Positions 23,154 to 38,510 of a stretch of 64,000 bases of DNA are shown one piece after another; the stretch's first letter is position 1; each line of letters starts with the position of its first letter. Source of the DNA: Chryseobacterium sp. G0201 (lineage in GTDB: Bacteria > Bacteroidota > Bacteroidia > Flavobacteriales > Weeksellaceae); the NCBI RefSeq assembly GCF_003815655.1, contig NZ_CP033917.1:3162001-3226000 (forward strand), read 5' to 3'. Both the position numbers and the translations under genes were made by a program. The notes beneath the pieces are model-generated. The model worked only from the letters and a program-made list of their open reading frames with translations. It had not been told where the DNA came from and ran no database searches.

Positions 23154-23555
23154 ATGACAGGAGAAAAAGATCTTAAAACACTATTACGTTCAATGGAGCC
23201 TCAATTGAATGAAGGCGAATATGTATTTTGCACGGTAGAAAAATTTCCGGCGATTGATCTCAATGAGATCGTCTGTTATTTTAAAGAAGAGGAAGGTATT
23301 ACTTTGATTATTAGAAGAGAACTGGCAGATCAGCTACATTTTAAATATGAATTTATTGCTTCGTGGATCACTTTAAAGGTTCATTCTTCACTTGAAGCGG
23401 TAGGTTTAACGGCTGCATTTTCCAGAATTCTTTCTTCAAAAAATATCAGCTGCAATGTGGTTGCGGGATATTATCATGACCATATTTTTGTTTCAGCAAA
23501 TGATGCAGATAGGGCAATGGAAGAACTTAAAAGATTTTCTAAGGTTGAAATTTAA
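23154..23555 (+). CDS. ACT domain-containing protein
   Basis: A 133-residue cytoplasmic protein with two short alpha/beta modules: EYVFCTVEKFPAIDLNEIVC then ITLIIRRELAD, and WITLKVHSSLEAVGLTAAFSRILSSKNISCNVVAGYYHDHIFV, the latter typical of the ACT_7 group that pairs with DUF2241. ACT modules bind amino acids, so a sensing or regulatory role is likely, but no ligand is known. It is nine bases after folP and precedes the ilv attenuators, from which it is separated by a promoter. Confidence 0.8.
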   Translation: MTGEKDLKTLLRSMEPQLNEGEYVFCTVEKFPAIDLNEIVCYFKEEEGITLIIRRELADQLHFKYEFIASWITLKVHSSLEAVGLTAAFSRILSSKNISCNVVAGYYHDHIFVSANDADRAMEELKRFSKVEI

Positions 23556-23642
23556 AAATAGATTATTTTTATTTGAAGAAGCTTAAAAAACAGTATTAGA
23601 ATATTGCCTAAAAAATAAAAAGTTAAAAAAAAGCTAAAAAAA

Positions 23643-23672
23643 TTGTGTAATATTAAAAAATTAATACCTTTA
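23643..23672 (+). promoter_or_regulatory. Candidate promoter of the ilv operon
   Basis: TTG (23643-23645), 19 bases, then TACCTTTA (23665-23672), a 7/8 match to TAnnTTTG. The ATG of leader peptide 1 comes four bases later, so transcription should begin at or one base before it. Same geometry as the tyrA leader promoter. Confidence 0.6.
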
Positions 23673-23676
23673 CACC

Positions 23677-23742
23677 ATGAATTTTACGAATCAGAAAAAT
23701 ATTATTGTTATTTCTATTATTAATACTATTGTCATTCAATAG
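23677..23742 (+). CDS. ilvL: ilv leader peptide 1 (Ile/Val-rich)
   Basis: A 21-residue ORF from ATG 23677 to TAG 23742. After MNFTNQKN it reads IIVISIINTIVIQ: seven Ile and two Val in the last 13 codons. It is followed by a 12-bp terminator hairpin. Ribosome stalling for lack of Ile-tRNA or Val-tRNA would leave AACGGT (23748-23753), just after the stop codon, free to pair with GCCGTT in the terminator's 5' arm (23787-23792). This is the classical design of a branched-chain amino acid attenuator. The ATG lies four bases after the -7 promoter element, so translation appears leaderless. Confidence 0.85.
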   Translation: MNFTNQKNIIVISIINTIVIQ

Positions 23743-23783
23743 TAAACAACGGTAGTATAACAATAAAATTATTTAAATTATAT

Positions 23784-23815
23784 AAAGCCGTTTCATTGTG
23801 AAGCGGCTTTTTTTA
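23784..23815 (+). terminator. ilv attenuator terminator 1
   Basis: AAAGCCGTTTCA pairs with TGAAGCGGCTTT (one T-G pair) around a three-base loop, followed by a T run. It lies between leader peptides 1 and 2, so it gates everything downstream. Confidence 0.9.
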
Positions 23816-23826
23816 TTTCAGAAATT

Positions 23827-23880
23827 ATGTATCAATTAACAACAATTATTATCGTCATTATTATTCCCTTGCGACTGTGA
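23827..23880 (+). CDS. ilv leader peptide 2 (Ile/Val/Leu-rich)
   Basis: A 17-residue ORF from ATG 23827 to TGA 23880, reading MYQLTT then IIIVIIIPLRL: six Ile, one Val and three Leu. It begins 12 bases after terminator 1 and no promoter element lies between, so it is only reached by read-through of the first attenuator. The segment TGTGAGAAGG (23876-23885), which includes the stop codon, pairs at nine of ten positions with CCCTCTCACA in terminator 2, giving a clear antiterminator that a ribosome finishing the leader would mask. Confidence 0.82.
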   Translation: MYQLTTIIIVIIIPLRL

Positions 23881-23910
23881 GAAGGAAAGATATTGTCTAT
23901 ATATAATCTT

Positions 23911-23944
23911 AGCCCTCTCACATTGTGAGAGGGCTTTTTTATTT
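23911..23944 (+). terminator. ilv attenuator terminator 2
   Basis: A perfect 11-bp stem, AGCCCTCTCAC with GTGAGAGGGCT, three-base loop, followed by TTTTTATTT, about 27 bases before ilvE. Second gate in series. Confidence 0.92.
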
Positions 23945-23970
23945 CAACAAACCCTAAACTGAATAAAAAA

Positions 23971-24873
23971 ATGTATTACAACAACGAAACCTTCATTTAT
24001 TTTAACGGAAAATTTGTAAAAGCAAAAGATGCACAGACTGATCTTTATGGGCAGTCACTTCACTATGGTTACTCTGTATTTGAAGGAATTAAGTCCTATA
24101 AAACAGATAATGGGACAAAGATTTTTAAAGCTGAAGAACATTATGACCGTTTGCGTCGTTCCGCAGAGCTGATGCATATTCCATTTTCTTATACAACTCA
24201 GGAACTTACTGATCTCACGTATAAATTGCTATCCCTGAATGGTCTTTCTGATGCTTATATCCGACCATTGGTGATTTGCTCACCCAATATGTCTCTTTCT
24301 AAAGGGAAAGAATCTTACCTGACCTTATTAGCCTGGGAATGGAGCAACGGATATCTGGGAGATAAAATGCGCATTATGACTTCAAGCTTTCAAAGACCCA
24401 ATCCGAAGGCATTTTTAGTAGAGGCTAAAGTTGGAGGGCATTATGTAAACTCAATTTTGGCCTGTCAGGAAGCCAAAGATAAAGGTTATGATGAAGCTTT
24501 GGTACTGGACGAAAAAGGAAACGTTGCAGAAAGTTCAGGAGCCAATGTTTTTTATGAAAAAGATGGCGTTTTATTTACTCCGTCAAAAGGAAATATATTA
24601 CCGGGAATCACCCGAGAAACGGTTTTTGAAATATGTAAAGAATTGCATATTCCTGTTAAAGAAACCTTCTTTAAACCTGAAGAAATGAGAGGAGCCGATG
24701 CCGCATTTTTTTGTGGTACTGCAGCTGAAATTGTTGGTTTAGACTCTCTGGATGATATTCCATTTAATAAAAACTGGGATGATACCTACAGTTGTCTGAT
24801 ACAAGAAGCCTATAGAAATTTAGTTAGAGGAAAAAGTCTTAAAGAATTAAAAAACGAATTAAAAGTAAGCTAA
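23971..24873 (+). CDS. ilvE: Branched-chain amino acid aminotransferase
   Basis: Last step of Ile, Val and Leu synthesis: a PLP-dependent class IV aminotransferase of 300 residues. Visible are SLHYGYSVFEGIKSY, the catalytic Lys in EAKVGGHYVNSILACQEAK, the EALVLDEKGNVAESSGANVF segment and the phosphate-binding GTAAEIVGL near the end. First structural gene of the ilv operon; its TAA directly abuts the ATG of ilvD, so the two are translationally coupled. Expression is expected to depend on passing two attenuators. Confidence 0.94.
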   Translation: MYYNNETFIYFNGKFVKAKDAQTDLYGQSLHYGYSVFEGIKSYKTDNGTKIFKAEEHYDRLRRSAELMHIPFSYTTQELTDLTYKLLSLNGLSDAYIRPLVICSPNMSLSKGKESYLTLLAWEWSNGYLGDKMRIMTSSFQRPNPKAFLVEAKVGGHYVNSILACQEAKDKGYDEALVLDEKGNVAESSGANVFYEKDGVLFTPSKGNILPGITRETVFEICKELHIPVKETFFKPEEMRGADAAFFCGTAAEIVGLDSLDDIPFNKNWDDTYSCLIQEAYRNLVRGKSLKELKNELKVS

Positions 24874-28320: not shown

Positions 28321-28608
28321 ATGGAAACAGATAAAAAAGAATTTACCATCACCACCTATACAGAGAATTATTTGGGAGTAATAAGCCGGATCAATAATAT
28401 ATTTTCCAGAAGGAGAATTGTTGTTGAAAACCTTAATGTAGGTCCTTGTGAAGTACAGGGCATTAAAAAATTTATCATTGTGATTAATGAAAATGAAGAA
28501 GCCATAAAAAAACTGGTAAACCAAATCGAAAAACAAGTCGATGTCTTGGAAGTTCATTATCACAGAAATCCTTGTATGACGGTATTAAGAAATGCAGGGA
28601 ATTATTAA
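28321..28608 (+). CDS. ilvN: Acetolactate synthase, small (regulatory) subunit, short form
   Basis: A 95-residue single ACT domain: FTITTYTENYLGVISRI, then RRRIVVENLNVGP and KFIIVINENEEAIKKLVNQIEKQVDVLEV. Small subunits commonly have about 160 residues with a second domain; this one ends after the ACT core, close to the size of E. coli IlvN. It should bind valine and tune IlvB. Position between ilvB and ilvC fixes the assignment. Confidence 0.92.
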   Translation: METDKKEFTITTYTENYLGVISRINNIFSRRRIVVENLNVGPCEVQGIKKFIIVINENEEAIKKLVNQIEKQVDVLEVHYHRNPCMTVLRNAGNY

Positions 28609-38139: not shown

Positions 38140-38510
38140 AAACATTTTAAGGAGCTATTTCCCGCTTTCCGTTGCAATCTTTTTTTTCAAAAAAGGATTT
38201 TCTCTTCAATCGGGGCTAGGTTTGCAGTCATTCTTCTCAATATTAGAAGTAATAATTATCCGCAAACTTTGTCATCCTGGAAGGATCTCGACGGTCGGAA
38301 AACAAAGATTTCAATTTTGTTTTTTTTGAGATTGCTTTACTTCGACAGACTCAGTACAGGCTCGCTTCGCTCCTCGCAATGACCAAATGATTTAATGAAA
38401 ATTTTGCACTTTAAGATTTAACTTTCTATATTCGTTTTAATATTAAATAAAAACTCTCGCAGATTTTTAAAACTCAAACATCTGTGCCAATTTGTGCAAT
38501 CTGTGGGCAA
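38140..38510. repeat. Cluster of dispersed repeat fragments in a 503-base gap
   Basis: The gap between alaS and the sigma factor gene (38025-38527) holds no gene. It strings together several repeat-like pieces: an AAGGAGCTATTTCCCGC stretch, TTTGTCATCCTGGAAGGATC (38270-38290, shared with the palindrome at 55202-55319), a GC-rich CTCGCTTCGCTCCTCGCAAT segment, and a CTGTGCCAATTTGTGCAATC segment (38481-38510) that echoes 17660-17695. Such pieces are, from memory, frequent in Chryseobacterium intergenic DNA. Confidence 0.55.

Follow-up and report, generated by a model that had tools for sequence, protein, structure and literature searches.

Ribosome-mediated attenuators are known from the amino-acid operons of enterobacteria, among them ilv, leu, his and trp. 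A survey from 2010 knew leader-peptide systems solely in Proteobacteria and Actinobacteria, and mentioned some rimP leaders with a second terminator in tandem (PMC2965389). Leader-peptide attenuation has been proposed for amino-acid operons of Flavobacterium psychrophilum (PMC9723704), and tandem attenuators with different signals were described for Salmonella mgtCBR, in 2012 termed a singular example (PMC3641672). In the window studied here (the whole 64-kb stretch of DNA that was analysed), positions 23643-23970 read in order as a promoter, an Ile/Val-rich leader 1, terminator 1, an Ile/Val-rich leader 2 and terminator 2, with ilvE next. The layout given in a preliminary description, two leader/terminator units in a row before ilvE, is thus borne out by direct reading and by scans. 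We consider it likely that these units are two leader-peptide transcription attenuators in series, placed between one promoter and ilvE and responding to the same Ile/Val signal. What carries this reading is sequence evidence, namely the anatomy, its conservation, matched pairing and the placement of the switch behind the Ile/Val codons.

All features of the locus lie on the plus strand. The promoter (23643-23672) is of the Bacteroidetes type TAnnTTTG and consists of TTG at 23643-23645, 19 nt and a -7 box, TACCTTTA, at 23665-23672 with a 5/6 match. Leader peptide 1, MNFTNQKNIIVISIINTIVIQ, extends from its ATG at 23677 to its TAG at 23742 and holds 7 Ile and 2 Val codons; leader peptide 2, MYQLTTIIIVIIIPLRL, extends from its ATG at 23827 to its TGA at 23880 and holds 6 Ile, 1 Val and 3 Leu codons, exactly as counted before. 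Both leaders are thus short ORFs with a run of codons for the product amino acids, and a predicted intrinsic terminator lies between leader and first gene. Terminator 1 (23784-23810) and terminator 2 (23911-23935), each followed by a T run, were identified by terminator scans and are seen in the alignments of relatives. Between 23200 and 24200 there are 3 terminator-like sites against a mean of 0.3 in shuffles, the third of them, at 23255, lying within the preceding ORF. The first gene of the operon, ilvE (23971-24873), opens the order ilvE-D-B-(N)-C-A; the final ORF of this operon extends to 30957. Of the genes named earlier as ilvEDBNCA, ilvE, ilvD, ilvB, ilvC and ilvA pass NCBIfam cut-offs, while the putative ilvN, a 95-aa ORF at 28321-28608, is named from its position only.

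The preliminary description had made its case depend on conservation of the leaders among relatives. From an IlvE search of genome contigs, the best 80 of 86 named loci were taken, which together with the copy in the window gave 81. A unit was scored where a terminator of score at least 18 was preceded, at a distance of at most 100 nt, by the end of an ORF that has 5 or more Ile/Val within 10 residues. By this rule, 49 loci have two units, 29 have one and 3 have none. The latter (L033, L058 and L079, with 113, 156 and 0 nt upstream) were left out, and three loci scored with two units (L061, L063 and L067) were recounted as single, their far unit lying beyond -440 with an ORF that resembles the end of the preceding gene. 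The final tally is 46 tandem and 32 single among the 78 loci whose upstream sequence is long enough, of which 77 are named relatives and one is the window. The tandem set comprises 41 named Chryseobacterium loci, the window, 3 Flavobacterium and 1 Winogradskyella. Both units, the spacing of leader and terminator included, are therefore kept in 46/78 loci, and the leaders retain Ile/Val across some synonymous changes. The same rule found 0 units in 400 dinucleotide-shuffled upstream regions. As a background for the leader rule, an Ile/Val-rich ORF lies upstream of 8 of the 37 strong terminators on both strands of the window; two of these are the ilv units, one is terminator 1 on the opposite strand and five were judged to be chance.

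The start of the transcript can be predicted from the promoter. With the TAnnTTTG box located at -12 to -5 (PMC9723704), transcription in the window would begin at 23677. In 41/46 tandem loci, a -7 box (at least 5/6) and the AUG of leader 1 that follows it are spaced by exactly 4 nt, and a box in this position means that the transcript would start with that AUG. Leader 1 is therefore probably leaderless in Chryseobacterium. Leaderless mRNAs have been put at 5.5% in F. psychrophilum (PMC9723704), and 5′ UTRs below 10 nt at about 3.7% in B. thetaiotaomicron (PMC7366714). Single-unit loci that have a box (31/32) place it 12 to 30 nt before the AUG, with most distances between 16 and 21 nt, and the 14 distant tandem loci introduced below place it at 9 to 21 nt, so that the 4-nt spacing is no general mark of tandem loci. 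Among units before ilvD, the box lies at most 8 nt from the leader AUG in 11/34.

Each attenuator has a strand at or behind the end of its leader that can pair with the 5′ arm of its terminator. For attenuator 2, the strand TGTGAGAAGG at 23876-23885 was said to match at 9 of 10 positions, which held up (-12.9 kcal/mol, a value that 15 of 2000 dinucleotide shuffles also reach). For attenuator 1, the 6 bp proposed for AACGGT at 23748-23753 do form, with one G-U pair and -7.8 kcal/mol, but 244 of 2000 shuffles equal them, so that the pairing is not beyond chance in this genome alone. Across relatives, pairing reaches p ≤ 0.05 against dinucleotide shuffles in 41/46 first and 30/46 second units of tandem loci, in 26/32 single units and in 23/33 units of distant ilvE loci, but in only 7/34 ilvD units. 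The median pairing energy of strand 2 is -13.2 kcal/mol with the terminator arm of the same unit and -7.1 kcal/mol with dissimilar arms from other loci; among 171 non-redundant units, the cognate pair is the better one in 12850 of 14760 comparisons. When strand 2 is simply shuffled, an equally good pairing arises in 740 of 8550 trials, all units taken together.

Columns were counted, unshifted, on MAFFT alignments of 45 tandem loci, with L080 left out. Terminator 1 is paired in 503/510 cells of 44 distinct rows and the antiterminator of attenuator 2 in 340/351 cells of 39 distinct rows. The latter shows a two-sided change at none of its 9 pairs, unit 2 hardly varying at all; the antiterminator of unit 1 shows one at 1 of 6 pairs with 151/264 cells paired, strand 2 being mis-registered there between two versions of the leader. 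A hand-anchored count distinguished 13 combinations among 42 loci and included one two-sided exchange, G-C for A-T. The alignment across relatives suggested at the outset has thus yielded conserved leader codons but scant compensatory change.

Two further structures lie beside the antiterminator strands. The end of leader 1 can form a putative pause hairpin, ACTATTG-TCATT-CAATAGT (23725-23743), whose pattern is present in 45/46 tandem loci and whose variants swap outer pairs on both sides (ACTATTG/CAATAGT, GCTGTTG/CAACAGT and ATTATTG/CAATAAT); the search pattern demanded TTG...CA(A/G), so that the outer stem bases alone count as evidence. This hairpin adjoins strand 2 of attenuator 1 without overlapping it; a classical protector is a 1:2 structure that forms when no ribosome is present. 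In unit 2, a TTCCCTT/AAGGAAA complementarity with conserved bases (23864-23888) overlaps strand 2 and could, as a putative protector, hide part of it.

To place the switch relative to the ribosome, the RNA left free ahead of the ribosome was folded to the end of the terminator 5′ arm and loop, with the A site on each codon in turn. The antiterminator of attenuator 2 has -13.7 kcal/mol while the ribosome stands on any of the Ile/Val codons from 7 to 12 and is hardly weaker at Ile13 (-13.5); from there it falls to -8.7 on Pro14, -3.6 on Leu15, -1.5 on Arg16, -0.2 on Leu17 and 0 on the stop codon. That of attenuator 1 stays at about -8 kcal/mol on the later Ile/Val codons and is near 0 on the stop codon. 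An antiterminator that excludes the terminator and depends on ribosome position is what folding gives, the pairing of unit 1 being at chance level here. The same holds widely: in 181 of 191 units, ΔG is ≤ -5 kcal/mol with the ribosome on the last core Ile/Val codon but ≥ -4 once it has reached the stop codon, and in the second leaders of the 46 loci ΔG is ≤ -8 for all 277 Ile codons. With the ribosome on the stop codon, the 46 tandem loci have a median of 0.0 kcal/mol in unit 1 and of -3.0 kcal/mol in unit 2, the latter residue probably being a small hairpin between strands 2 and 3. No other single observation speaks as strongly for function as this predicted switch placed directly after the Ile/Val codons.

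Taken as a mechanism, RNA polymerase would start at or beside the AUG of leader 1. With charged Ile-tRNA and Val-tRNA plentiful, a ribosome at the stop codon would cover strand 2, and terminator 1 would end the transcript; with a ribosome waiting on Ile/Val codons, strand 2 would pair with the 5′ arm of terminator 1, and polymerase would pass. It would then meet a second leader and terminator posing the same Ile/Val question. We infer that termination and read-through take place in the cell, that leader 2 is initiated separately and that the gates multiply; two such gates would leak less and give a larger and steeper response than one, and may behave as a two-step response.

Three other explanations deserve consideration, beginning with the possibility that the two leaders read different signals. 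The preliminary description had credited leader 2 with adding Leu sensing, attenuator 1 reading Ile/Val. Leader 2 does have at least one Leu codon in 46/46 tandem loci, while leader 1 has none in 27/46, and a ribosome at the early Leu codons (present in 38 and 29 of the 46 loci) leaves the antiterminator free, with medians of -18.3 and -17.3 kcal/mol. At Leu4 of the window the value is -14.8, and since Leu4 and Leu5 precede the switch, they could provide Leu sensing; Leu4 also occurs in L080 (Winogradskyella) and in L029 (Flavobacterium). Early Leu is, however, missing from two of the three tandem Flavobacterium loci (L035 and L044), and within Chryseobacterium it is about as conserved as a neighbouring codon (37/42 against 34/42 for Gln). 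The only Leu found in 42/42 Chryseobacterium second leaders is that of the 'IPL' motif, which lies past the switch (-3.6 kcal/mol in the window, median -6.9 in 45 loci) and whose bases fall in the TTCCCTT/AAGGAA complementarity. Indeed, a ribosome at Leu15 or Leu17 covers most of strand 2, in contrast to one on the Ile/Val codons, and in the folding model any slow codon before the last Ile would behave like an early Leu. With the invariant Leu past the switch point and the early Leu unconserved, the earlier claim is not supported, and we regard a gate with Leu as an additional signal as unlikely.

An arrangement in series further presupposes that unit 2 has no promoter of its own, from which a second, parallel transcript would start. 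A TTG with a 5/6 -7 box does occur within 70 nt before leader 2 in 14/46 loci. On the other hand, a 6/6 box with TTG precedes leader 1 in 38/46 tandem loci and leader 2 in none, the gap between terminator 1 and leader 2 measures 14-34 nt and is T-rich, the best such site in the window scores 2/6, and a sigma-70-type scan of 23200-24200 gave 4 sites against 5.1 expected. The box scan of the 46 tandem loci thus found no conserved promoter before leader 2, in agreement with the preliminary description, and parallel transcripts appear very improbable. It might also be that only one unit regulates, the other being a relic or a plain leaky terminator. One unit suffices in 32/78 loci, which we count against the serial reading; unit number differs between lineages, a single-unit Flavobacterium locus (L043) sits inside an otherwise two-unit group, and the attenuator 1 pairing of the window is weak. 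Yet leader, terminator and spacing persist for both units in the 46 tandem loci, where pairing beyond shuffles is seen in 41 first and 30 second units, and regulation by one unit alone therefore seems decidedly unlikely. Two attenuators in series reading Ile/Val thus remain our preferred explanation.

Codon choice in the leaders differs from that of other genes. In 43 long ORFs of the window, GTC accounts for 6% of the Val codons; its share is 56% in first and 48% in second leaders of Chryseobacterium, 70% in the leaders of single-unit loci and 37% in those of the outgroup, and ATA falls from 16% in the long ORFs to 0-4% in leaders; as the leaders are related, these counts are not independent. 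In the leaders of the 191 units, the codon after GTC is ATT in 193 of 236 cases. The genome has 69 tRNA matches, 67 of them named by ARAGORN, and both named Val genes carry UAC with no GAC among those named; with two matches (L293 and L295) unnamed, a GAC tRNA-Val gene is probably, though not certainly, absent. GTC may be decoded by wobble only, which may render the leaders more sensitive.

Units of this kind extend beyond the close relatives. We examined 19 distant upstream regions before ilvE and 61 before ilvD (the latter first in its operon or not), hand-picked from longer lists. Before ilvE, 13 have two units, one has three, four have one and one has none; before ilvD, 34 have one unit, 27 none and none has two. 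Among these, L170 is cut at a contig start, and L176 has a second terminator whose leader failed the rule. The case of three attenuators in series before ilvE (L168, a 960-base stretch in genome G475) has a TTG-started first leader, and its second and third units are 92% identical, which points to recent duplication. On an IlvE tree of 78 rows, the labels of unit number require 3 changes; the Chryseobacterium and Flavobacterium tandem loci, with L043 inside, form one group of modest branch support (89/62) to which Winogradskyella does not belong. Within the order of the window, this type of IlvE has a patchy distribution and is present in 46/395 genomes (E ≤ 1e-60) compared with 167/395 for IlvD (E ≤ 1e-100).

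Comparison of 16 units relates the first units of L168, L080 and L166 to two single units upstream of ilvD (identity 0.68-0.71) and their second units to unit 2 of the window (0.65-0.67), against a shuffled background with a mean of 0.50 and a maximum of 0.58. For these distant tandem loci, unit 1 could thus be an old ilvD-type attenuator and unit 2 could have arrived with ilvE. For the window, neither this history nor another is favoured, its unit 1 having 0.54-0.62 identity with all others, the best being the Flavobacterium unit 1 (0.62), and no tie to the ilvD units.

For other operons of this genome, leaders were sought within 600 nt upstream of leuA, of hisG and of two aspartokinase matches. 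Upstream of hisG (L296) lies a candidate single His attenuator: its leader is MKPNFLTLHHYYHHLC, and a strong terminator occupies the stretch from 109 to 83 nt upstream of the gene. Upstream of an aspartokinase gene (L297) lies a Thr-rich leader, MKCTRNISDISTPKFSTSEVSSVSTATTTTP, with no terminator passing the scan. The best leuA match of this genome, which is below the family cut-off, has no strong terminator in the 600 nt upstream. The sole Rfam match at the gathering threshold in the 64-kb window is a Flavo-1 RNA (RF01705) on the minus strand at 38154-38221 (67.8 bits), and no T-box or riboswitch was found at the ilv units by this search.

If the anatomy functions as we read it, natural leader-peptide attenuators for the same signal are stacked, with copy number varying from one to three among related species. 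Carrying copies in series may be nature's means of multiplying the strength of a metabolic gate, and it would become testable in nature whether stacking multiplies dynamic range, whether it sharpens the response to starvation and why some lineages need it. To our knowledge, this phylum does without Shine-Dalgarno sequences, and on a leader peptide that is conserved and probably leaderless, the test ribosome must be loaded in a way unlike that of textbook cases. More tentatively, the series could be an amplifier in which one to three copies asking the same question tune the gain of the ilv gate in different lineages, and in which, in Chryseobacterium, a leaderless copy 1 and an internally initiated copy 2 would let the gate compare modes of initiation as well.

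Among the matches listed in our literature search, whose scope did not take in the survey by Lopatovskaya and colleagues (2010), there was no paper on serial amino-acid leader-peptide attenuators for the same signal. The proposal for F. psychrophilum concerns the same bacterial order and infers the same kind of mechanism, but its passages on amino-acid operons contain no serial pair (PMC9723704). Like the mgtM and mgtP ORFs of mgtCBR, two leader ORFs lie in one leader RNA and would act in turn, a likeness of anatomy only; mgtCBR responds to ATP and proline through structures unlike intrinsic terminators, whereas here two intrinsic terminators follow leaders for the same amino acids (PMC3641672). 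Two different signals, as in mgtCBR, are not what we find, both leaders being Ile/Val-rich with the invariant Leu past the switch, although Leu4 and Leu5 could contribute. Serial RNA sensors before one gene are also seen in the tandem riboswitches of B. clausii metE, which have two terminators (PMC3641672), and in double T-boxes (PMC9413887), both of which differ from the ilv units in having no leader peptide, while synthetic attenuators in series are engineered and take antisense RNA as their signal (PMC3753616). With the classical attenuators of enterobacteria, the locus shares a short ORF rich in regulatory codons, an antiterminator strand at the end of that ORF, an intrinsic terminator and a biosynthetic operon; it differs from them in its two, and elsewhere three, full units in series and, in Chryseobacterium, in a first leader that is probably leaderless.
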